Shown here one piece after another: positions 28,851-57,119 of a DNA stretch of 64,000 nt. Position 1 is the stretch's first letter, and the number at the start of each line of letters is the position of its first letter. Source of the DNA: Candidatus Avelusimicrobium aviculae (GTDB taxonomy: Bacteria > Elusimicrobiota > Elusimicrobia > Elusimicrobiales > Elusimicrobiaceae); the NCBI GenBank assembly GCA_944324655.1, contig CALUXF010000006.1, forward strand, positions 1 through 64,000, read 5' to 3'. The translations under genes and the position numbers were made by a program. The notes under the pieces are model-generated. The model was not told the DNA's origin. It ran no database searches and saw only the letters and a list, made by a program, of their open reading frames with translations.

Positions 28851-30692
28851 TTAGTTAGCTACAGCACATTTCAAGCCACTTCTTTCAACATGACACCAGC
28901 TATCAGTACTAGCGGCTACAGGCCCACAACTGCTCCAACATGTCCTTCCTTTGCTCGAGCAACTACCACCAGAGCGGGCGCCTAACTCAGAACAAGTCAT
29001 ATCACTGCTCATAAAGATATCAGTCAAGCATTTCGAAGTACCACTAGGGATTTCAGCGCATTTTTTATTCACAACCTTCTTTTCGGAATTGGACTGCCAA
29101 ACCAATTTCTCTTCTTCCTTACAGGTATCAGAGGTCAATTCCCAAGTGCATTTATCTAAGCTGGTGTTATATTTATACGTCTTCGAACCCGTATACCCGG
29201 CAGGGCAGCTTTCTGTTCTCGTTAAGTTAGAAGGCTGGCCCGCACATCTGCAGCTACTCGTGCTTCCATAGCTCCAAGAGCAAGTATCGTGGTTGTACGT
29301 ATCCGTTATTGTTCCAGTCCATTTACTGTTCTCACTAGAGCAGTAACGCGTCTTCGTGCTGGTCCCGCTGTATTGTTTCTTTGGTGCCCCCGCACTGGAA
29401 CCGCAGTAGCAGTCTTCATCATAATACTGGTCCCAATAGCAGTTCCCTTTGCCATAATAGTAACGGGCCGTAATCGTTCCGTCATATTTGCTGCCCCATT
29501 TGCTGTCCGTAGAGCAGCTTCTCGTTTTATCCTCATAACCGCTCGTGCGCCCACTGGAAGGAGCGTCCGCTCTCGTTGTGCTGCAATAGCAGTTGGCGCT
29601 TTCATTCCATTTGCAGTTGGCAAAATCATACGTGCCGCTTATCGTCCCGTCATATTTGTTGCCGTAACCCAATATCTTGTCATACCGGCAGCTGCGGCTG
29701 CGGCTGGCACTCGCCTCGTTTACCATGTTCCCGTTTATGGCACCGCTCTTAAAACGCGGGTTACCATATTTCTGGTCAAACGTAGTCGCCGTGCTGTCAT
29801 TATAACTCCCGCTGCTGTACCCTTCGCACTGGCAATTGTGGTGGGACGGAATAGACGTCCATTTCACCCATTTCTCCCAATTGCTCGTATTCTCATACCC
29901 TTTCGGGTCCGCTTCATACCATTTGCACGTGTCATAATTAAAACGCCAAAAAATAGTGCCTACTCTGCGCTCGCTAGGGCTTTCCTGAGAAGAACACGTC
30001 TGCGTGTTCCATTCATTGGTACAATGCCGCGAACTAAACGGACTTACCGAGTTCCCGCAGCGGCATTCCCCACCACGTTTGTCCGTACGTATCGGATAAG
30101 AAGTAAATTCCGTTGTCCCGTCCTTAATAACCCCTTTGTTCTCATCCACTTTAAAATTATAACGATAATCGTCTGTGGAGCCTCTCCAGTGCACATCCGA
30201 CCCTACCAAGCTCTGCGCAGGATACACAATGTGCGTGCTCCCGCCTATCGTCATGCTCGGTATGTCCGCCGCTATAAAAGTGCTCCCCGCGTTAATATTC
30301 GTAGACGCGGCTACCGTTATATCCTGCGGATTGGCGCTGTTGGCTAATAAACGCCCTCCTAACAAACTGCCACCAGACCCTACTTCCAAACCGTCCGCTT
30401 CCGTTATCTGGTAATTCAGTTTATTAGTGGCGCTTCCCGCTCGCGCGTCAGACCCGGTAAGACGAAGCTCGTTCATCTTTACCATCCCCTGCACGTCTAT
30501 CTTACCCGTGCTCACGGATGTATTACAAAAGTTAACAAAAAGCGTCTTAGAGGCACGCTCTTCATTTAACGATTCCACCTGCGCAAACGCACCGATGGGT
30601 TGTGACAGTACCGTCACGAATTTCAACTCTTCCGCTTGTATTACTGCCACTCCAAGCGAAATCAGTGCCATACTGGTTAATATTTTTTTCAT
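28851..30692 (-). CDS. Exported Cys-rich protein with five CxC...CxW repeats
   Basis: Not a family I recognise. The 613-residue product has a signal peptide (MKKILTSMALISLGVAVIQA) and a Ser/Thr/Gly-rich, strand-rich region to about residue 205. Five diverged repeats follow. Each opens with CxC (Cys210/212, 287/289, 368/370, 428/430, 481/483), has an internal Arg-x-Cys and Gly-x-Ile step, and closes with CxW (Cys256, 360, 418, 471, 515 with Trp two residues on). Repeats shorten from about 77 to about 50 residues. A Cys-rich end domain (residues 545-613) with at least ten Cys follows. Many disulfides suggest a surface or extracellular protein, perhaps an adhesin or pilus-associated subunit. It is a single gene with its own structured leader and a strong terminator. 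Confidence 0.8.
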   Translation of the reverse strand: MKKILTSMALISLGVAVIQAEELKFVTVLSQPIGAFAQVESLNEERASKTLFVNFCNTSVSTGKIDVQGMVKMNELRLTGSDARAGSATNKLNYQITEADGLEVGSGGSLLGGRLLANSANPQDITVAASTNINAGSTFIAADIPSMTIGGSTHIVYPAQSLVGSDVHWRGSTDDYRYNFKVDENKGVIKDGTTEFTSYPIRTDKRGGECRCGNSVSPFSSRHCTNEWNTQTCSSQESPSERRVGTIFWRFNYDTCKWYEADPKGYENTSNWEKWVKWTSIPSHHNCQCEGYSSGSYNDSTATTFDQKYGNPRFKSGAINGNMVNEASASRSRSCRYDKILGYGNKYDGTISGTYDFANCKWNESANCYCSTTRADAPSSGRTSGYEDKTRSCSTDSKWGSKYDGTITARYYYGKGNCYWDQYYDEDCYCGSSAGAPKKQYSGTSTKTRYCSSENSKWTGTITDTYNHDTCSWSYGSTSSCRCAGQPSNLTRTESCPAGYTGSKTYKYNTSLDKCTWELTSDTCKEEEKLVWQSNSEKKVVNKKCAEIPSGTSKCLTDIFMSSDMTCSELGARSGGSCSSKGRTCWSSCGPVAASTDSWCHVERSGLKCAVAN

Positions 30693-30970: not shown

Positions 30971-31870
30971 TTATTTTTCCGGTGCTTCTTCCGGTTTTTC
31001 TTCGGGATTATCCGGCTGATTTCCGGTAGGGCCTAATTGCGTGCCGGACTCGTCAGAACTTCCCTCCGGGTTAGAAGAATCAGCAGAGGAATCTCCGGCC
31101 GGAGGCGGATTAGAGGCATCCGAACCGCCGGTAGGAGCTTTGTCCCCAGGTTTAGCGGAAGGACGCGCCGGCCCCGGGCGATGATGCGGCACAGACGGGC
31201 CGGGACGTTTGCCTGGAAACGCAGCCGGAGGAGCGGGCGGCGGGGGCGGCGGCGGAGGCGGAGGCATCATGCTCATTCCTCTAGACGAAAACAACGGATC
31301 TCCCGCAAAGAAAACTTTCATGTCCCCATTGAACTTAATGGCGGCCACCGTTTTGCGCGCTACCCAGCGGGCACGTCTGGAAGAACGGGATTCCTTCTTA
31401 ATGGTTCTTTCCAAATCAGCCACTTGCATTCTAAAAGCATTCAATGAGTGGCGTCTCATATTAATTTGATGAGCAAAAATCGCGCGGGCGCGGGCATTTA
31501 AAAATACCCAGCGGCGGCGGTAGACACGTTGGTCATGCGCAATGCCTTCCTGCAGCTCTTTCAAATCTTTTTTAAAGGTGCGCAGATTTTCTTTCGCCAT
31601 CGCCAACTGGTCTTTACGCAAGCGGGCCACTTGTTTAGACAAGTCCTTTTTAGCCTCTCCTGCTTTATAAGAACCGGGTTTGGCTTTTTTATATTTCCGC
31701 ACAAAGCGTTTAATCTTTGCTTCATGGCGTTTAAAACGCACGTCCCAATCCGCATCCATCATCACGGGTTTAGCCGGAAAAGGCGGGGGAGGGGGCATCT
31801 TCGGGCCGGGAGCGGCAAAGACGGGCCCAAACACCCCAACAGACAATACAAACAGAAATAACTTCTTCAT
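30971..31870 (-). CDS. Exported coiled-coil, proline-rich protein of unknown function
   Basis: A 299-residue protein, family unrecognised. The signal peptide is MKKLFLFVLSVGVFGPVFA, followed by a Pro-rich stretch (PKMPPPPPFP). Residues about 40-180 are strongly basic and helical (VARLRKDQLAMAKENLRTF), probably a coiled coil. A run of ten Pro residues near position 205 is followed by a disordered Pro/Gly/Ser tail that turns acidic (NPEEKPEEAPEK). AGGAGG lies ten bases before the ATG. The basic helical part with an extended tail suggests binding to a polyanion (LPS, peptidoglycan or DNA), but this is only inference. Confidence 0.7.
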   Translation of the reverse strand: MKKLFLFVLSVGVFGPVFAAPGPKMPPPPPFPAKPVMMDADWDVRFKRHEAKIKRFVRKYKKAKPGSYKAGEAKKDLSKQVARLRKDQLAMAKENLRTFKKDLKELQEGIAHDQRVYRRRWVFLNARARAIFAHQINMRRHSLNAFRMQVADLERTIKKESRSSRRARWVARKTVAAIKFNGDMKVFFAGDPLFSSRGMSMMPPPPPPPPPPAPPAAFPGKRPGPSVPHHRPGPARPSAKPGDKAPTGGSDASNPPPAGDSSADSSNPEGSSDESGTQLGPTGNQPDNPEEKPEEAPEK

Positions 31871-32054: not shown

Positions 32055-33329
32055 ATGGCAAAATTTCTACTGTTTTTTACTAACTTGGCTTTTCCCTTCG
32101 CCGCTTTAGGCGTATTTTTCGGCTTTTTATTTTCCGCACGCCGTAAATTACTGGCCAATATTATACAGGAATTAAAAGAACGGTTCGCGCGGGAAACCCC
32201 TGCGGACCTGCCCCAAAACGCGTTATGGATACACTGTGCCAGCGTGGGGGAGGTAATGTCTGTAAAAGAACTCATTACCCGTCTAAAAGAATATTATAAA
32301 AAACCCATTTTGGTAACCACTTCTACCGCCGCCGGGCAGGAAACAGCCCAAAAAAATCCCGCCATAGACAAAGCGGTGCTGGCCCCGCTGGATTTTTATC
32401 CCTTCACGCGCAGTTTTATACGCAAAGCAAAACCTTACCGTTTATTTATAGTAGAAAGAGAAATTTGGCCCAATATGCTGGCTGCCGCCAAAAATGAAGG
32501 GGTACCCTATGCGCTGGTCAATGCGCGTATTTCCCGCAAAAGCACCCGCGCATACTGTTACGTAAAACCGCTTTTTGAATATATTTTACAAGGAGTTTCT
32601 TTTGCCGCCCTGCAATCTCACGACGATAAACGCCGTTATGAGCGCATCGGACTGCCGGAAGAAAAAGCTTTCGTCTGCGGAAATGTAAAATATGATACCT
32701 TGTCCGATACTCCTTCCAAAGTAGAAGAAACCCAACAACTAATTAAAAAACTAGGCTGGGAAGGCAAAAATATTTTTGTCTGCGGCAGCACCCACCCGTT
32801 AGAAGAAGAAATTCTATTAAAATCCGCGCCGGAACTTATTGAAAAAGACATTAAAATTATTTTTGCCCCGCGCCACTTGGAACGCCGGGAAGAAATAGAG
32901 CAAAACCTGCGCCAAAGCGGTTTAAACTACGCTATGATGAGCAAAAAACCCGCCGCCTGCGATATTTTATGCGCTGACCAAATGGGCTTTTTACAGTCTT
33001 TATACACGTGCGCGGCCATTACGTTTGTGGGGGGATCTATCGCCCCGAAAGGCGCACATAATTTGCTGGAGCCCGCCATTGTGGGTAAAGTGGTGTTGTT
33101 TGGCAAAAGTTATCATAATACGCCGGACACCGCCCACGCGCTGCTTACCCGCGGCGGAGGCATATTAGTAGATGAAACCAATTTGAAAGAAACCGTTTTA
33201 AGATTGCTGGGGGACAAAACCCAGCTGCTGGATATGAGCGAAAAAGCCCGCAAAACCGCTCTGGGTTTTAAAGGAGCAACGGACAAAATTATGAAAGTGG
33301 TGGAAGATTATGAACGAAAATCAGCCTAA
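32055..33329 (+). CDS. waaA: 3-deoxy-D-manno-octulosonic acid (Kdo) transferase
   Basis: A 424-residue GT30 enzyme that adds Kdo to lipid A at the inner membrane. Seen are the N-terminal anchor (LFFTNLAFPFAALGVFFGFLF), LWIHCASVGEVMSVKELITR (the acceptor Glu region), VNARISRKSTRAYCYVKP and the donor-side FVGGSIAPKGAHNLLEPA with GKVVLFGKSYHNT. Length is normal for the family. The ATG is six bases after a TATAAT (32043-32048) without a ribosome site, so it is likely leaderless. The next gene overlaps by 20 bases, an LPS core pair. Confidence 0.95.
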   Translation: MAKFLLFFTNLAFPFAALGVFFGFLFSARRKLLANIIQELKERFARETPADLPQNALWIHCASVGEVMSVKELITRLKEYYKKPILVTTSTAAGQETAQKNPAIDKAVLAPLDFYPFTRSFIRKAKPYRLFIVEREIWPNMLAAAKNEGVPYALVNARISRKSTRAYCYVKPLFEYILQGVSFAALQSHDDKRRYERIGLPEEKAFVCGNVKYDTLSDTPSKVEETQQLIKKLGWEGKNIFVCGSTHPLEEEILLKSAPELIEKDIKIIFAPRHLERREEIEQNLRQSGLNYAMMSKKPAACDILCADQMGFLQSLYTCAAITFVGGSIAPKGAHNLLEPAIVGKVVLFGKSYHNTPDTAHALLTRGGGILVDETNLKETVLRLLGDKTQLLDMSEKARKTALGFKGATDKIMKVVEDYERKSA

Positions 33330-34848
33330 TATTTTAGTAGTCAGACTGTCATCTTTGGGGGATATTGTATTGTCCTCCCCCGTATACAAAAATTTAAAAG
33401 CCAAATGGCCCAACTGCCGTATTACGCTTTTGGTAAAGCCGCAATTTGCCCAAGTGCTGGCCGGCCACCCGGATATTGATGAAATTATGGTAGCCAAAAA
33501 AAGCCTGTGGGGAAACATACGCCAAATCCGGGCGGGGCATTTCACACACTTTTTAGATATACACTCTACGTTCAAAACCATGCTGATGGGGTTATTCTGC
33601 AATGTGCCAAACCGCCTTCGCTACAACAAAAATTCCGTAGCGCGCAGAATGTATGTTAAATTTCGCAAAAATTCCCCCGTGTTGGAAAAACACACGCTGG
33701 AACGTTACTTGGCGGTATTAAACGGCTGGAACGTTCCGCTTAAATATACCCAGCCGCAGCTGGGGGACTGGGCTTACAAAAAAGCCAATATGGACGGCAA
33801 AAAAATAGGGAAAATAGGTATTTTCCAAACCTCTTTTATAGGCGACAGCGTGCTTACCACCCCGCTTATCAAAAAAACCGCGCATTTATTTCCGGACAGT
33901 AAAATAGTGGTTATCACCCGCCCGCAAACTGAAGACATATTCCGCCCGATGAAAGAAGTATCCAAAGTAATCTTAAACGACAAAAAAGGGTGGAACAAAA
34001 TCTTCGGCGTATGGAAAACCGCCAAAGCCATCAAACAAGAACACATGGATATTTTACTGGTTCCGCACCGCAGCTTTAGAAGCGCCTTAATCGCTTGGCT
34101 TTCCCGCGTGCCGATACGCATCGGATTTACTTCCAGCGAAGGGTGGTTCTTGTACACCAAAACCGTTCCTTTCTCTTGGATGATACATGACGCGGAAAGA
34201 AACCTTTCCTTATTGCAAGGCATCGCCAAAGAACAATTTAAGGCTGAACAACTAAGCCTGCGCTATGCCCCATCCGCCGAGGAAAATGTAGCCCGTTTAA
34301 TGACTGATTTTAATTTAAACGGAAAAACGTTGGTAGGTTTACACCCCGGTTCCGCCTGGCCCACCAAATGCTGGCCGATGGACTATTTTGTAAAACTGAT
34401 CAGCCGTTTGGAAACGGAACTGCCTGTACAAACGGTTATTGTGGGAGGGGGGAAGAAAGACGCCGATTTGGGAGAAAAAATCTGCCAGCTTTCCCAAGGG
34501 CACTGCGCCAACTTATGCGGCAAAACCAGCCTGGCTGATTTAATGGCGTTAATGACGCATTTTAAATTGTTTATTACAAATGACTCCGGCCCTATGCACA
34601 TAGCCACCGCATTTAACGTGCCCACACTAGCCATTTTCGGCCCCACCACCAAAGAATTGGGCTTCTTCCCATACGGGCAGGGGCACCGGGTAATGGAAGT
34701 AAAAGGGCTGGAATGCCGCCCCTGCGCCTTGCACGGAGGGAAAAAATGCCCGCTGGGACATTTTAAATGCATGCGTGATATCCCGCCGGATGTGGTTTTC
34801 CAAAACGCCAAAGAAATGCTGGAACAAAGCGGCGTGATAAAAGTTTAA
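33310..34848 (+). CDS. GT9 heptosyltransferase-like enzyme with duplicated N-terminal domain
   Basis: A 512-residue ADP-heptose:LPS heptosyltransferase-family protein, about 150 residues longer than usual. The first GT-B N-terminal domain starts ILVVRLSSLGDIVLSSPVYK (8-27). A second, similar one starts at residue 168 (IGIFQTSFIGDSVLTTPL) and keeps the Gly-Asp-x-Val-Leu step and following beta-alpha pattern. A single C-terminal donor domain follows: GLHPGSAWPTKCWPMDYF (about 343-360) and TNDSGPMHIATAFNVP (about 423-438). The order is N-N-C. The end has several Cys (CRPCALHGGKKCPLGHFKC). It overlaps waaA, so LPS inner-core assembly is the likely role. Confidence 0.85.
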   Translation: MNENQPNILVVRLSSLGDIVLSSPVYKNLKAKWPNCRITLLVKPQFAQVLAGHPDIDEIMVAKKSLWGNIRQIRAGHFTHFLDIHSTFKTMLMGLFCNVPNRLRYNKNSVARRMYVKFRKNSPVLEKHTLERYLAVLNGWNVPLKYTQPQLGDWAYKKANMDGKKIGKIGIFQTSFIGDSVLTTPLIKKTAHLFPDSKIVVITRPQTEDIFRPMKEVSKVILNDKKGWNKIFGVWKTAKAIKQEHMDILLVPHRSFRSALIAWLSRVPIRIGFTSSEGWFLYTKTVPFSWMIHDAERNLSLLQGIAKEQFKAEQLSLRYAPSAEENVARLMTDFNLNGKTLVGLHPGSAWPTKCWPMDYFVKLISRLETELPVQTVIVGGGKKDADLGEKICQLSQGHCANLCGKTSLADLMALMTHFKLFITNDSGPMHIATAFNVPTLAIFGPTTKELGFFPYGQGHRVMEVKGLECRPCALHGGKKCPLGHFKCMRDIPPDVVFQNAKEMLEQSGVIKV

Positions 34849-34853
34849 CACAA

Positions 34854-34881
34854 AAAACCCCGGTTTAAACCGGGGTTTTTT
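34854..34881. terminator. Bidirectional terminator between LPS pair and PC4-like gene
   Basis: AAAACCCCGG and CCGGGGTTTT around TTTAAA, with T-runs on both strands. Confidence 0.9.
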
Positions 34882-34898
34882 GTACCGTTTATCCAAAA

Positions 34899-35366
34899 TT
34901 AAAATTCCAAGGGTTTTTCGTCCAAAGCCTCTTTCATACGGGCAAACAGGCTTTTGATTTCTTTTATTTTAGCGTACGGCAAACGGATGCCCTTTTTGGT
35001 CCAGCCGGTGTAAGTCTCGTCTTCCTGCCATTGGCGCAAATCCAACCCTTTTACCCCTTGGAAAGTGCTTACCCGGGCCACGACGGACATTCCCGGACGT
35101 TTGGCAAACTTGCCCAAATCTTTATCCGGGCCGGGAGTGTTGTCCTCCGGCAAGGAGGCTATCAGCGGGGCTAAAGCACGTACGATATCCGGCGTCATAG
35201 TAATGCCCGCACGCGTTGCGCCAAAAAAGCCGTCTGTCTTTAAATATTTTCGGATGGACGCGTAACGATAATTGCGGTACGCGTCTATGGAAAACTTCAC
35301 TTCACAGCCGTCTTCCAGCTCCAAAACGCCCACATTGCAAAGTACGGTAAAGCTGCTTTCGCTCAT
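34899..35366 (-). CDS. PC4-like protein with two tandem PC4-type motifs
   Basis: The ATG at 35366 (MSESSFTVLC) has GGGGGAT five bases upstream; an in-frame start at 35393 is less likely. The 155-residue product has two stretches that look like the PC4/p15 ssDNA-binding fold: SIRKYLKTDGFFGATRAGITMTP and LRQWQEDETYTGWTKKGIRLP. In each, an Arg-aromatic strand leads to a Thr/Lys-x-x-Gly-Ile-x-Leu/Met step. Bacterial PC4-like proteins bind single-stranded DNA and are found in many phyla. A role in transcription or repair is inferred from the family. Confidence 0.6.
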   Translation of the reverse strand: MSESSFTVLCNVGVLELEDGCEVKFSIDAYRNYRYASIRKYLKTDGFFGATRAGITMTPDIVRALAPLIASLPEDNTPGPDKDLGKFAKRPGMSVVARVSTFQGVKGLDLRQWQEDETYTGWTKKGIRLPYAKIKEIKSLFARMKEALDEKPLEF

Positions 35367-35466
35367 AGAATCCCCCAAATACGCCCTACACAATATAGCA
35401 AAATATGATATGATAAGCGTTAGTTATATTCTAGTGTTTGTTTAAGCTAAAAGCAAGCAGTTTTTG

Positions 35467-35519: not shown

Positions 35520-37847
35520 ATGAGCGACAAAAACCCCAAAGAATCATTAATAGGAACCGATATTTCCGGTTGTGAGATTCTGCAAAAAGTTGCCGAAGGC
35601 GGCATGGGTGCCGTATATAAAGCGCGCCACAAAGCATTAAACCGCATTGTTTGTGTTAAAATTTTAAGCCCGGCATTAGCCAATGACAAAAAAGCCGTTG
35701 AGCTGTTTTTAAGCGAAGCCCGCGCCGTGGCCGAGCTGGACCATCCCAACATCGTAAACGTTTATAACGTAGGCAAAGAAAGAGGTTATTATTTCATCGT
35801 TATGTCCTTTATTGAAGGGCAGACTCTTTCCATTATGTTAAAACGGCGCAAAGTGCTGCCTGTGAATTTAGTGCTGGACTTGTTTGACGGCATTTTAAAA
35901 GGCTTAAACGTCGCCCATGAAAAAGGCATTATTCACCGCGACATTAAACCTTCCAACATTTTAATCAATTCAGAGATGCACCCTAAAATTGTGGATTTTG
36001 GCATCGCCAAAAAAGTAGATAAAGACAAAGGCACCACCAAAACCACCGAACTGGCCGGAACCGCTTATTTTATCGCCCCGGAACAAGCCTTGGGACGGGA
36101 TTTGGATACCCGGGCGGATTTATATTCTATCGGCGCCAGTATGTATTATGTATTGACGGGGCAATTTCCGTACAACGGCAAAAACACCATTGACATTATT
36201 CAAAAACACATCAATGACCCTGTGCCGGACCCGTCAAAAATACGCAAAGATTTACCGCCTTGGCTGGCCCAAGCCATTCAAAAATTAATGAGTAAAGACC
36301 CGGATAAACGATTCCAAACCGCTAAGGAAACCTACTTGTTTTTTCAAAAAATGCGTGCGGAAGACCAACTTCGTTTAAAATCCGGCGCCAGCGGTTCTGT
36401 TATTGATTTGGAAACGGATTCTTCTCTTAAGATTATAAAGGAATCTCCCGTTACCAATACCGAAAGCATCAAAAAGAAACGCCACGAGGCTTTATTAAAA
36501 GATACTGCCAAATCTTTTAATCAGAGCAAGCCCGTGCTGTTGCCTGGTTTGAACGAAAGCCCGGCGGCCCCAGTACGCAGCGAGGCGCCCAAACGGCAAA
36601 CGCCTCCGCCTCCGCCGCCTATACCGGGGAACTACCCTTCGCAAAACGCCGCTATTAATGCCGAAGTTTCTCCTTTAGGGGACACTCCAAAAGAACCTTT
36701 CAGATGGCGTAATTTGATAGATTTTGCTTGGCTGCCAGTGTTGATGCTATTCTCTTTACTGGTGTCATATACGTTCTTTTTATTTGGAAAGATATGCTCC
36801 GTACACGTCAGCCCCAATTTAGGGTTTATCGCCAACTTGGTTTCCCCGCTGACGGCCTCTCAAAACGCCCCTTATCAATTACCGGTAGCAGGCGTATGTT
36901 TAATTATGCTGGCGGCGGTATTTGCATCCTCTTCCATAAGGGCTTTTGCGCGCAGCACCATGGGGCTGTTGGTAATCGCTTTCATTTCCTATATGGCCGG
37001 TTTGTTTACGCCGCAGGTGCCGTATTGGGATATAAAAGGCATTGGGCAGTTTATTTTCTCCCCTGAATATTCCTTATGCTACTTTGTAATAGCGGGAATG
37101 TGGGCCTTGTCTTTATGTTGGAGAACCACCCTGACAAAGGCGGAAGCCTTTTTAGGCACGGCTTTGGTGGTTTTAACCGTTGTGCTGGCCTATACGGCTA
37201 CCGGGCTTTCTATCGCGCCCTACACAGAAGGAGCCTTTATTAAATGGCTGGCGTTTTTAGGTTTATTATTCACCTTATGTACTGTCTATTACTTAACAAC
37301 ACAAAAAGGGGTACATTCCAGCATTGTGGCCCCTACCTTGTGCTTGCTTGCGGCGGTAGCCTGCGTATGGACGTACAACATATCCGGCTTGGCCAATACC
37401 ATGAACACGACATTAAAAGTATTGGCCTCTAAAATAAACGCGGGGGAAGTATCCCACCCCTCCACCCAAATTGATAAAGAAGATGACGTAGGATATGTTT
37501 CCGTGTTTCAGTCGGACGCGTTTTCCCATTTAAATACATTTAAACGGATCAATTTACTTTCTCCGGAAGAAAAATACAAGTATTTAGACAAACAAATTAC
37601 TATTTTTACAAAAGACGCTATACCGCAATCCTATCGGCCGTTAATGATAGAAATGCTTTCGGCGTATTATTTGTCAGGTCCCAGCAGAATGACTTTGCTG
37701 GCGTGGGACTACGCTTTAGGCTATCCAATACAAAATTTTAACCAAAACGCACAAAACAATAACGCTTATTACTTTTTGTTAACTTTGCTGTATTGGTTTG
37801 GTATATTGGGTTGTGCGGCAAACATTGTTTTTAGAGAGGACGCATGA
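35520..37847 (+). CDS. Ser/Thr protein kinase with multi-TM C-terminal domain
   Basis: A 775-residue Hanks-type kinase. The kinase domain (about 15-285) has GGMGAVYK, Lys47 in VCVKIL, HRDIKPSN (139-146, catalytic Asp141), DFG (159-161) and APE (186-188). A Pro-rich linker (TPPPPPPIPG) follows. The C-terminal half has about ten TM helices and is unlike the PASTA or single-TM forms of most bacterial kinases. AAGGA precedes the ATG. The PP2C gene overlaps by four bases, giving an opposing pair. What the membrane part senses is not known. Confidence 0.92.
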   Translation: MSDKNPKESLIGTDISGCEILQKVAEGGMGAVYKARHKALNRIVCVKILSPALANDKKAVELFLSEARAVAELDHPNIVNVYNVGKERGYYFIVMSFIEGQTLSIMLKRRKVLPVNLVLDLFDGILKGLNVAHEKGIIHRDIKPSNILINSEMHPKIVDFGIAKKVDKDKGTTKTTELAGTAYFIAPEQALGRDLDTRADLYSIGASMYYVLTGQFPYNGKNTIDIIQKHINDPVPDPSKIRKDLPPWLAQAIQKLMSKDPDKRFQTAKETYLFFQKMRAEDQLRLKSGASGSVIDLETDSSLKIIKESPVTNTESIKKKRHEALLKDTAKSFNQSKPVLLPGLNESPAAPVRSEAPKRQTPPPPPPIPGNYPSQNAAINAEVSPLGDTPKEPFRWRNLIDFAWLPVLMLFSLLVSYTFFLFGKICSVHVSPNLGFIANLVSPLTASQNAPYQLPVAGVCLIMLAAVFASSSIRAFARSTMGLLVIAFISYMAGLFTPQVPYWDIKGIGQFIFSPEYSLCYFVIAGMWALSLCWRTTLTKAEAFLGTALVVLTVVLAYTATGLSIAPYTEGAFIKWLAFLGLLFTLCTVYYLTTQKGVHSSIVAPTLCLLAAVACVWTYNISGLANTMNTTLKVLASKINAGEVSHPSTQIDKEDDVGYVSVFQSDAFSHLNTFKRINLLSPEEKYKYLDKQITIFTKDAIPQSYRPLMIEMLSAYYLSGPSRMTLLAWDYALGYPIQNFNQNAQNNNAYYFLLTLLYWFGILGCAANIVFREDA

Positions 37848-38668
37848 GCACCTTTGATATAGAATTTGCAGCCGTTACTGACATTGGAAAAATCCGCGAG
37901 AAAAACGAGGATAGCGTCCTGATTTCTTCTGAACTGGGCCTGGGCGTAGTGGCAGACGGCATGGGAGGGCATTCCGCCGGAGAAATTGCCAGCAATATTG
38001 CCGTACACGTGCTGGAAGAAACCATCCGCAAAGTAAATGCCGGCTCTTTAAAAATGCCGGATACTTTCCTGCCCAAACTGGATAAAATAGAGCGCAAACT
38101 GCTTATGGCAGCCAACTTAGCTAATGCCGCCATTTATACCACGGCCCAAGCTTCCGCCATTTATAAAATGATGGGAACCACCCTTACCGGCGTTACTTTT
38201 GACGGAGACAACGCGGTGGCGGTGCACGTGGGGGACTCCCGCATTTATTTATACCGGGACAAAAAACTAGTCCAAGTAACTACCGACCATTCCTTGGCGA
38301 TGGAACACGTCCGCCGTGGGTTATTAACCAAGGCGGAGGCGGATAAATCCAAAATACAAAACGTGCTTACCCGCGCCATGGGCATTAAGAAAAACGTAGA
38401 ATTTGATTTACTTAAATTCCCCGTAAAAATAGGGGATATTATGGTATTGTGCTCAGACGGCCTATACAAAGGCTTGACCGAAAAACAAATGCAGGAATTA
38501 TTGGAAAAAGGGCAAAATACCCCATTAGTAAAACTCTGCAAACAACTTGTACGCGTATCTAACGACAATGACGGCCAGGATAATATCTCCACCGTGATGA
38601 TAAAAATCCTTCCCGCCCAGCCATTAACTTTGCGTCAAAAAATAAAACGTTTTTTTAGCAAAAGTTAA
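37844..38668 (+). CDS. PP2C-family Ser/Thr phosphatase
   Basis: A 274-residue metal-dependent phosphatase. The PP2C motifs are complete: REKNEDS at the N-terminus, VVADGMGGHSAGE, VAVHVGDSRIYLYRD, LCSDGLYKGL and DNDGQDNIS. The Asp residues of DGMGG, SDGL and DNDGQDN are metal ligands. It starts in an ATGA overlap with the kinase gene, so it probably reverses that kinase's phosphorylations. Confidence 0.95.
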   Translation: MSTFDIEFAAVTDIGKIREKNEDSVLISSELGLGVVADGMGGHSAGEIASNIAVHVLEETIRKVNAGSLKMPDTFLPKLDKIERKLLMAANLANAAIYTTAQASAIYKMMGTTLTGVTFDGDNAVAVHVGDSRIYLYRDKKLVQVTTDHSLAMEHVRRGLLTKAEADKSKIQNVLTRAMGIKKNVEFDLLKFPVKIGDIMVLCSDGLYKGLTEKQMQELLEKGQNTPLVKLCKQLVRVSNDNDGQDNISTVMIKILPAQPLTLRQKIKRFFSKS

Positions 38669-54185: not shown

Positions 54186-57119
54186 ATGAGATATTGGGTC
54201 TATATAAATGATAAAGTGGAAGGTCCTTTTGAAGAGGACAAACTTGTAACATTAGAGGGTTTTACCCCAGACACGCTGATTTGCTCGGAAACAACCGAAG
54301 CCGGAGCCAACCAGGAATGGGTAAAGGCATCAGCCATGTTTGAGTTTGATCCATTGGAATCCACCATAACCAGGGCTCTGCCCACGCCGGAAGAATTAAA
54401 CACGGCGGTTAACCCCGGGACAACGGATCCCAACCTCACCCAAGCCCTCAAAGAAGCCCATTTTGCTTCTCAAAGCCCTGCACAAGAAGCCGCCCCGGTA
54501 TCCACAGACGCTACCCAGCTGATTTTGGAAAAACTGGACTCTCTTACCCGGGAAATTGAAAATTTAAAACAAAAAATGGAAGAGGTTATCACCGCCTCAT
54601 CCCATGCCCAGGCACTTTCGCTAAATACGCAGCATGCGGCCAACACGCAGCCGGAAGTAGACATGTCCGCCAACACCATCACGCTTACAAACCGTGATAT
54701 GAGCCACACCGCCTCAACGATAGAAGATTCCACCGCCAATACGGACAGCTTAGTCACCCAAGCGGAATCTTTAGTGGCACAAGCTAACCAGCCGGAAAAT
54801 AAAAACGCGGATTTCCTGCACGGTATTGATTTATCTTCTGAAGACTCTTCTGCCAATCCCGCCGAATTGCCTTTAGGCGGAAAAGGGGAAGAAGAAGTGG
54901 TTCTCCGTTCCGCCTTGGATTCCCTGTACGGGGCAAAAGTGCAAGAAGAACAAACCGAAAAAGAAAAAGAATCCACTTTCCAAGACTTATTGCGCCCCCA
55001 CAATGCAGTGCAAAACGCCCAAAACGCGGAAAAAACCAAACCTACGTTGGAAGACGCCTTGAAAGAAACGCAAAACGCAGGCGATACGGAACAGCAAAAA
55101 GAAGAAGTTTTACAACAATTTGCCCCCACTGAGCAAAAAGATTTTATTGCGGAAGCCTTGGCCGAAGCGGAAAAAGAAAACCAAGCAAAACAAAGCGCAC
55201 AAGCTTCTTCCGCTGTGAAGGAAGAACAACCGGCTGCCCAACCGTTGGAAGGCTTAACCCCGGTCACCCCGGAACAAGAAGCCGCCATTAAACAGGATCT
55301 TCCCCAACCGGAAAATGAAGTACCTGTACTTTCTATTTCCGGATCTAAGGAAGAAGATTCCGCTTCCAAACCGGAACAAGAAGAGGCTCCCGCCGCTATG
55401 GCAGATTTGCCGCAAATGCCGCAATCTGAAGCCCAACCGGAAGAAGCTTCCCGCGACATGGGAGAAGAAGTTCCTTTAAAAACCGTCTCTTCCATGCTGC
55501 CTGGTTTGGCTTCTTTAGGAGGGGAAGAGCCCGCCGCTGAACCGGCCCCCGCCCCGCAACAAGAAGAACAAGCCACTCCGCAGGCGGCCCAAGAAGAGCA
55601 AACCGAAACCATTCAAGAATTAGTACCCGGCGCCACATTGGATAAAACAGTTCCTCCCGTAACGGTGGCTAAAGAAAAAAAAGAAGACAAAAATGAAAAC
55701 GCTGACTTGCTTTCCGCCGATGATTTAAAAAATACGGAAGCGGCTCCGTTTACCGCAGAAGAAGAAGCGCTGATGGAATCTCCCGTTCCCCGCGCGGCCC
55801 AAGACCCCGCTGTCAGCCAACCGCAGCCTTCTCAGCCAGCGCAAGAAGAGCCGCAAGGCCTTGCCTCTTTGGAACCGGTTGTTGAACAACCCGCGGAGCA
55901 ACAAGCCCCCGCGCCCGCTACCCAAACGGTGGAAGAACAGTTAGACGCCGCCGCCCCCGCCAATGAGCTGGAAAAAACAACCACGCAGGCGGAATACACC
56001 CCCAATGATTTAACAGAAATTGAATTAAAAGAGGGCTCCACCTATTTGATTTCTGACTTTGTGCCTCCGGCTCAAGCGGAAGATTTTGCCGCCGCCGCCC
56101 AAGCAGCTATGGCTAAGACCCAAGCAGAGCTGAAAGGGGAAAACAAAACTGAACAAAAATCGGAAGAATTGGCGGTGGAAGAAGTAGTTCCCGCCAACAA
56201 CAATAATCAAGCGGCGCAAGCCCAAACGGCGCCGGAATCACCTCTGCCGGGTGCAGATGTCACCGTGTCTCAAATTATTTTGGAAAACACCATTAAAACA
56301 AAACGCGGCGCCGCGTTGGATATCAAAACGGTGCCTATGGTGAAAGATCCGGCCGAATCTCAACGTTTGGATTTAAGTGATACGGAACTGCAGGACGTAA
56401 CCATGCAGCATGACTTAAAAGCAGCAGATCTTCCGTCTTCTCCTAAAAAGGCAAAAACGCTTGTTATGGCTGTAATGCTGTTGGTATTGATAGGGGCTAT
56501 TTATGCCGGGGTAGCCTATTTGCAATTAATCCCGGACAACATAAACTTTATTAATCCCAAACCGGCGGTCTCTGATCAAACGCAAGACCAATTGGATGAA
56601 ATGCTCCCGGCTGATCCGGTACAACCGGCCGCGGCTCAAGTGTCCCCCACGGACAGAGTCTTGGCGGAAGTAAAGAATTACGCCTTGCCTAACGGAATGA
56701 CGCTGGAACAACTAATTGTTTCCCGCCATCCCAATGCCGCAAATATGATTGAGTGGACTATTTCCTCCGCCGTTGATCCGGACAATTACTCTGTAATGGC
56801 CAAAGTTCCGCCGGAAAATCCGCAAAGTTTCAAAATTTCCTACCGTTTTAATTACAACACGGTAACGAGAGCGTTGGAACCGACCATTTCCGATTCTAAA
56901 AACCTGCTTATGTCCGTAGGAGTAGGGAACGCCCAGCAGGCCCCGGCGGCTAACGTTCAACAACCCGCGCAGCAGCAGGCCATGCAAATGACCGCCGCTC
57001 AACAGCAAGCGTTGAGACAACAACAATTGGCTATGCAGCAAGCGCAGCAACGCGCTTCCGCGCAGGCTGTACCTCCGGCGCCTCGCCAAGCGGCCGTTGC
57101 CCAACGCCCGGTGCGCTAA
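54186..57119 (+). CDS. Giant GYF_2-domain, disordered, single-TM protein
   Basis: A 977-residue protein. Residues 1-56 form a GYF_2 domain (RYWVYINDKVEGPFEEDKL), a peptide-binding domain known from GYF_2 proteins of bacteria. Residues about 60-750 are almost free of order: long Glu/Ala/Pro/Gln-rich stretches with many diverged acidic repeats. One TM helix (LVMAVMLLVLIGAIYAGVAYL) lies at about 758-780. The C-terminal periplasmic part has a small folded segment (NYALPNGMTLEQLIVSRHP) and a Gln/Pro-rich tail. AAAGGGTG precedes the ATG. Function is not known; a cytoplasmic scaffold linked to the membrane is plausible. Confidence 0.75.
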   Translation: MRYWVYINDKVEGPFEEDKLVTLEGFTPDTLICSETTEAGANQEWVKASAMFEFDPLESTITRALPTPEELNTAVNPGTTDPNLTQALKEAHFASQSPAQEAAPVSTDATQLILEKLDSLTREIENLKQKMEEVITASSHAQALSLNTQHAANTQPEVDMSANTITLTNRDMSHTASTIEDSTANTDSLVTQAESLVAQANQPENKNADFLHGIDLSSEDSSANPAELPLGGKGEEEVVLRSALDSLYGAKVQEEQTEKEKESTFQDLLRPHNAVQNAQNAEKTKPTLEDALKETQNAGDTEQQKEEVLQQFAPTEQKDFIAEALAEAEKENQAKQSAQASSAVKEEQPAAQPLEGLTPVTPEQEAAIKQDLPQPENEVPVLSISGSKEEDSASKPEQEEAPAAMADLPQMPQSEAQPEEASRDMGEEVPLKTVSSMLPGLASLGGEEPAAEPAPAPQQEEQATPQAAQEEQTETIQELVPGATLDKTVPPVTVAKEKKEDKNENADLLSADDLKNTEAAPFTAEEEALMESPVPRAAQDPAVSQPQPSQPAQEEPQGLASLEPVVEQPAEQQAPAPATQTVEEQLDAAAPANELEKTTTQAEYTPNDLTEIELKEGSTYLISDFVPPAQAEDFAAAAQAAMAKTQAELKGENKTEQKSEELAVEEVVPANNNNQAAQAQTAPESPLPGADVTVSQIILENTIKTKRGAALDIKTVPMVKDPAESQRLDLSDTELQDVTMQHDLKAADLPSSPKKAKTLVMAVMLLVLIGAIYAGVAYLQLIPDNINFINPKPAVSDQTQDQLDEMLPADPVQPAAAQVSPTDRVLAEVKNYALPNGMTLEQLIVSRHPNAANMIEWTISSAVDPDNYSVMAKVPPENPQSFKISYRFNYNTVTRALEPTISDSKNLLMSVGVGNAQQAPAANVQQPAQQQAMQMTAAQQQALRQQQLAMQQAQQRASAQAVPPAPRQAAVAQRPVR

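Follow-up and report, generated by a model that had tools for sequence, protein, structure and literature searches.

A gut bacterium of the Elusimicrobiota, together with many of its relatives, appears to have merged into one protein the two enzymes responsible for the first two heptoses on the outer-membrane lipid. The protein is a 512-residue member of glycosyltransferase family GT9 encoded in the window (the whole stretch of 64,000 nucleotides analyzed here), and in it two acceptor-side Rossmann domains, N1 and N2, are followed by a single ADP-heptose donor domain, C. From its domains and from the genes found in related genomes, we consider it likely, at a probability of roughly two in three (0.66), that we are dealing with a bifunctional heptosyltransferase of the inner core, in which two acceptor domains would share the donor domain and carry out both the HepI and the HepII steps. 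The strongest support for this function is a pattern of gene complementation, by which a separate HepI or HepII gene is found where one of the domains is missing.

Domain Architecture of the 512-Residue Protein

NCBIfam models recognized two GT9 stretches within the protein. Over its full length it scored 200.4 bits with the HepII model TIGR02195 (cut-off 134.6) and 121.9 bits with the HepI model TIGR02193, below the cut-off of 185.3, N1 corresponding to the N half only. When the chain was divided, residues 1-155 alone had TIGR02193 as their best NCBIfam match (5e-12) and residues 156-512 alone reached 170.6 bits with TIGR02195 versus the same cut-off of 134.6. There was one match to PF01075 (residues 234-472, 148.1 bits vs. 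a gathering score of 22), and N1 alone had no match in Pfam; the single GT9 model of that database begins too far inside the fold to reveal it.

As modeled by AlphaFold2 (mean pLDDT 84, pTM 0.71), the complete protein contains three alpha/beta units, with N2, not N1, docked on C and with lower confidence (mean pLDDT 59) in the linker joining N1 to N2 (residues 151-160). Modeled alone (pLDDT 85, pTM 0.81), N1 matched the N domains of GT9 enzymes (3tov, Z 15.8; 1psw, Z 13.5; WaaC 2gt1, Z 13.0), and unrelated proteins started only at Z 8.6 in the structure search. Residues 157-511 form the normal two-domain GT9 fold (3tov, Z 37.1; 1psw, Z 33.1; WaaC, Z 30.5). As N2-C matches an ordinary two-domain enzyme and N1 matches GT9 N domains, the domain order is N1-N2-C, with N1 as the addition. 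The initial annotation had described a GT9 heptosyltransferase of N-N-C order, which the NCBIfam, AlphaFold2 and structure matches bear out, and the structure prediction that it had proposed does contain a second Rossmann domain. It had, however, taken the second N-domain to be the inserted part, and this did not hold, because N2-C is the ordinary enzyme and it is the first N-domain that is extra. The protein thus departs from the usual GT9 layout of one acceptor-side and one donor domain by having a part added and none missing. Coordinates of the domains and of the features discussed below are given in Table 1.

Table 1. Features of the waaA and N1-N2-C genes, by position in the window.
Feature	Position	Strand	Residues	Basis or remarks
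waaA, Kdo transferase	32055..33329	+		PF04413, 1.1e-51; NCBIfam Kdo transferase models match below cut-offs
Gene for the N1-N2-C GT9 protein, 512 aa	33310..34848	+		ATG start; internal stops absent
N1, first acceptor-side Rossmann domain, HepI-like (WaaC-type)	33328..33774	+	~7-155	Signature RLSSLGD; TIGR02193; own fold
N2, second acceptor-side Rossmann domain, HepII-type (WaaF-type)	33808..34239	+	~167-310	Signature QTSFIGD
C, single ADP-heptose donor domain	34321..34845	+	~338-512	PF01075; structure match together with N2
Asp18 codon, N1 equivalent of HepI catalytic base D13	33361..33363	+	18	Alignment to E. coli WaaC; D in 127/127
Asp179 codon, N2 equivalent of D13	33844..33846	+	179	WaaC alignment; D in 127/127
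Lys353 codon, equivalent of HepI K192	34366..34368	+	353	WaaC alignment; K in 126/127, 1 gap
Asp425 codon, equivalent of HepI D261	34582..34584	+	425	WaaC alignment; D in 126/127, 1 gap
Four-cysteine stretch in C	34714..34770	+	C469, C472, C480, C487	
Terminator-like element, inverted repeat then T run	34855..34882	+		Just past the N1-N2-C stop codon; sequence reading

Catalytic Residues and Selection

In HepI, D13 is the proposed catalytic base, and K192 and D261 are important for the chemistry, according to the available part of one report (PMC5713226). The initial annotation had proposed comparing the catalytic Asp of the two N-domains, and we found it kept in each of them throughout 127 distinct N-N-C proteins (out of 181 N1-N2-C ORFs, a number that includes repeats of the same gene across loci); the structure alignments took in 50 of the 77 N-N-C ORFs that were read from named loci. 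In N1 the HepI-type Asp (D18) lies in an SS-GD motif. Further invariant residues are R12, S14, S15, H85, Y105, K107, and R112 in N1 and Q173, R254, W290, R297, and N298 in N2, and the difference between the two sets fits two different acceptors. R112 falls at the position of WaaC R120 when aligned by eye, the automatic alignment being a few columns off; R120 is an arginine near the acceptor phosphate, as stated in the accessible portion of a second report (PMC9068772). The R-x-S-S-x-G-D motif of N1 was also present in all eight of eight N1-C enzymes, in which N1 is the only acceptor domain.

N1 is under purifying selection. Median dN/dS within the genus was 0.088 for N1, 0.065 for N2, and 0.080 for C, based on the 109, 206, and 141 usable pairs, respectively, of 435, many being saturated. 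By median dN, N1 evolves somewhat faster (0.152 vs. 0.086 for N2). The possibility that N1 is a decaying remnant was rejected on the basis of its invariant residues and dN/dS. In the C domain, the four cysteines listed in Table 1 are kept in 122-123 of the 127 N-N-C proteins, the others mostly having gaps there, and also in the N1-C and N2-C rows of the alignment, and a metal or redox role for them is possible.

The waaA Neighborhood and the Heptose Genes of the Genome

An overlap with waaA had been claimed in the initial annotation, and this was correct: by ORF coordinates, the 3′ end of waaA and the start of the N-N-C gene overlap by 20 nt, and both PF04413 and NCBIfam identify the upstream ORF as a Kdo transferase. 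With this overlap and the terminator-like repeat past the stop codon, waaA and the N-N-C gene appear to form a unit of two genes, which the repeat would close. Adjoining the N-N-C gene on the opposite strand is a gene (34899-35393, -) whose product of 164 aa contains two stretches matching PC4 (PF02229). Another gene of the window encodes a serine/threonine kinase-like protein, the second half of which is long and hydrophobic (35520-38668, +), and a PP2C-type phosphatase gene overlaps and follows it. ORFs of 613 (28851-30692, -), 299 (30971-31870, -), and 977 aa (54186-57119, +) elsewhere in the window had no Pfam match at 0.001.

A waaA on the same strand was visible in 123 N-N-C loci, many of them close relatives or repeats, and in 102 of these it was directly upstream. 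It was also adjacent in eight of the ten N1-C loci, the remaining two lying at contig ends, and in none of the five loci with a stand-alone N2-C gene, two of which have short flanks only. As waaA is found beside N1-C and not beside stand-alone N2-C, it is N1 that stays linked to the enzyme producing the acceptor for HepI.

The genome to which the window belongs (95% complete) probably can make ADP-heptose, judging by its matches to the rfaE domain II (184 vs. a cut-off of 181.5 bits) and hldD models (312 vs. 274.6), both above cut-off, and to gmhA, which was below it (190 vs. 209 bits). Its single PF01075 match is the N-N-C protein, and hence any GT9-type heptose transfer in this genome falls to one GT9. 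No match to the HepI model was found in it at E 1e-25. One or more weak GT9-like ORFs occur in most genomes of the same genus, and no such additional ORFs were seen in the genome of the window.

Distribution in the Elusimicrobiota

A profile search of 294 genomes drawn from the Elusimicrobiota, counting one contiguous N1-N2 match at E 1e-90 or better, identified the arrangement in 157 genomes and 37 of 90 genera. The same layout was read from the ORFs of eight further genomes (loci L180, L181, L184, L187, L189, L190, L193, and L194), where profile matches were fragmentary or too weak and one locus was cut by a contig end. An N1-type domain is present in 187 of the 294 genomes, and among the matches listed only G099, G105, G144, and G085 had more than one. 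Within the best 80 of 551 relatives, most were titled Elusimicrobia, Elusimicrobiales, Elusimicrobium, or Elusimicrobiota and some only "uncultured bacterium" or "bacterium"; the named relatives are records of uncultured Elusimicrobium and Candidatus Avelusimicrobium. Being common within the phylum, the N-N-C layout is not a one-off, and the conservation of the full layout far beyond one genome indicates that it is due neither to chance nor to mis-assembly. In several cases the gene was broken into two frames (L160:5992-7481, in CP096137.1; L138:5895-7476; G009:C88; and L191), and these are probably sequencing errors or natural splits.

Split Forms and Reciprocal HepI and HepII Genes

With three domain profiles, four states of the architecture could be told apart across the phylum. 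N1-C and N2-C occur as two genes (state A) at L206/L207 and L208/L209 (family f16) and L210/L211 (family f18); state B is the fused N1-N2-C form. State C, N1-C without N2, was found in seven genomes of families f3, f6, and f9 (G088, G158, G286, G256, G197, G116, and G226), a count that leaves out G262, for which the evidence is an N1-type match; among these N1-C copies, the one in G226 is truncated at the end of its contig and the one in G116 was translated from a late start codon. State D, N2-C without N1, was found in G190 and G214, which had no N1-type match at E 1e-20.

A profile built from the WaaF-like genes of N1-C-only genomes identified canonical WaaF (>380 bits) in only six of the 294 genomes (G256, G158, G088, G197, G226, and G116), and these are six of the seven N1-C-only genomes. 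The remaining matches listed were at or below 239 bits, most of them in the N2-C part of N-N-C genes or in N2-C genes. The seventh N1-C-only genome, G286, which is 85% complete, was without a canonical WaaF match. Conversely, none of the 294 genomes had a protein at or above the cut-off of the HepI model TIGR02193, and the two highest scores, 162 and 158 bits, belonged to G190 and G214, the N2-C-only genomes, whose separate HepI-like proteins have HepI as their best match. Where N2 is absent there is thus a separate HepII, and where N1 is absent a separate HepI. The WaaF search was set up after four of the six genes were known as rows of our trees; the outcome of the HepI search was not foreseen.

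Further GT9 genes in G241, G227, G237, and G137 scored 107-114 bits with the HepI model, approximately the level of the stand-alone N1-C of G088 (111 bits), and in G088 the same kind of further GT9 sits alongside N1-C and WaaF. Order-level relatives (family f2) and some genomes of the same class possess such an extra GT9, which could do one heptose step, and for this reason the reciprocal pattern is cleanest in the genome of the window and in states C and D. Whole N1-C proteins had their best NCBIfam score with HepII.

A second kind of heptosyltransferase fusion is also present in the phylum. A 571-aa protein of G196, in family f15 (L238:1339-3054, -), joins a DUF374 domain (PF04028), which we take to be acyltransferase-like, to a HepI-like GT9, and ORFs of about this length that match HepI recur in many f15 genomes.

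Trees of the Separate Domains

Of the 181 ORFs, 21 N-N-C proteins entered the domain trees, together with 30 two-domain proteins. The C domains of the N-N-C, N1-C, and N2-C rows formed one clade (support 96/94) apart from 19 other GT9 rows, which include E. coli WaaC, WaaF, and WaaQ, in a tree that left out the N2-C-only proteins of G190 and G214. This single clade indicates that one C lineage has been combined with N1 in some proteins, with N2 in others, and with the two together in the N-N-C form. The three E. coli proteins, used as yardsticks, all had long branches. In the free tree N1 and N2 were separate; an AU test did not reject N1 and N2 as one clade (p 0.233), the arrangement that a recent internal duplication of the N domain would give, nor was a position of the f16/f18 N1-C proteins outside the remaining C clade rejected (p 0.425). 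The AU tests are compatible with either ancestral state, fused or split.

Discussion

In the mechanism we propose, N1 would take the product of WaaA, Kdo-lipid A, as the acceptor for the first heptose (the HepI step) and N2 would take the heptosylated product for addition of the second (the HepII step), with ADP-heptose presented to both by the same C domain. N2-C is predicted to pack like an ordinary GT-B enzyme while N1 hangs on the weakly ordered linker, and for N1 to act, either N2 would have to leave C or N1 would have to work with the C domain of a partner chain. We infer that N1 is catalytic, and likewise infer its exact acceptor and the exchange of N1 and N2 on C. On balance, we lean slightly toward a scheme in which the one donor domain alternates between the two acceptor domains, which would differ in specificity, within one chain or between the chains of a dimer, in two consecutive steps of the LPS core, and in which the GT9 halves would be exchangeable modules across the phylum.

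The initial annotation had offered three possible roles for the layout: a two-acceptor enzyme, a docking domain, or control of product length. A two-acceptor enzyme is favored by the retention of both aspartates, by the reciprocal genes, and by the N1 part being the one that adjoins waaA when the protein is split; nothing speaks for product-length control. Docking is, in our judgment, unlikely. A non-catalytic N1 would in that case bind either WaaA or its product and hand the latter over to N2-C, which alone would transfer heptose, once or twice, and this agrees with the packing of N2 rather than N1 on C in the AlphaFold2 model, with the somewhat faster evolution of N1, and with waaA being the neighboring gene. 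Against it stand the invariant catalytic Asp of N1 (127/127), the R-x-S-S-x-G-D motif kept where N1 is the sole acceptor domain (8/8), and the separate HepI-like gene of the N2-C-only genomes G190 and G214.

We give still less credence to the protein being a HepII enzyme only, with N1 vestigial or regulatory and the first heptose added by another enzyme, or with a core that starts differently. NCBIfam does assign the whole protein to HepII and f2 genomes do possess a further GT9, but the HepI cut-off was reached in 0 of 294 genomes, the genome of the window offers neither a HepI match at E 1e-25 nor a second PF01075 match, and the dN/dS of N1 (0.088) speaks against a vestige. That a fusion, frameshift, or assembly artefact created the layout is scarcely conceivable; a few copies are frame-broken (G009, L138, L160, and G275), yet the identical layout in 157 genomes and 37 genera, that is, its conservation across the phylum, rules out such an origin.

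GT-B glycosyltransferases are described as pairing a single acceptor domain with a single donor domain, the active site lying in the intervening cleft. We found no report in the open-access literature of a natural GT-B enzyme that combines two acceptor domains with a single donor domain; known enzymes of the same layout, which the initial annotation had considered as counter-evidence, were thus not encountered there, and within the Elusimicrobiota the layout is common. The N2-C part is like HepII/WaaF (E. coli 1psw; TIGR02195) and the Veillonella protein 3tov in sequence, fold (Z 33-37), and catalytic residues, and the N-N-C protein differs from them by the additional HepI-like acceptor domain that precedes this part; the N2 signature QTSFIGD also differs from the RAPNWLGD of canonical WaaF in the N1-C-only relatives. 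With HepI/WaaC (E. coli 2gt1 and 6dfe; TIGR02193), N1 shares the fold of the N-domain and the SS-GD motif that includes D13, but it lacks its own C domain and scores below the TIGR02193 cut-off. In many bacteria WaaA adds two Kdo residues using one acceptor domain. It is therefore another LPS enzyme making two successive transfers, as proposed here for the N-N-C protein, which differs in having two acceptor domains.

A man-made parallel is provided by GT-B chimeras that auto-assemble from swapped N and C domains, so that an acceptor domain of one enzyme cooperates with a donor domain of another, as described in the available part of that report (PMC10937113). As far as that part goes, the donor domain of these chimeras works with foreign acceptor domains, as we propose for the N-N-C protein; the chimeras are man-made and two-part, whereas the N-N-C protein is a natural chain with two acceptor domains.

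If our reading is true, the halves of GT-B enzymes would be recombinable by evolution and exchangeable during catalysis, and the N-N-C protein would represent a compact route to two successive sugar transfers. For such a system the phylum holds its own natural controls, in genomes with N1-C alone, N2-C alone, both as split genes, and both fused.
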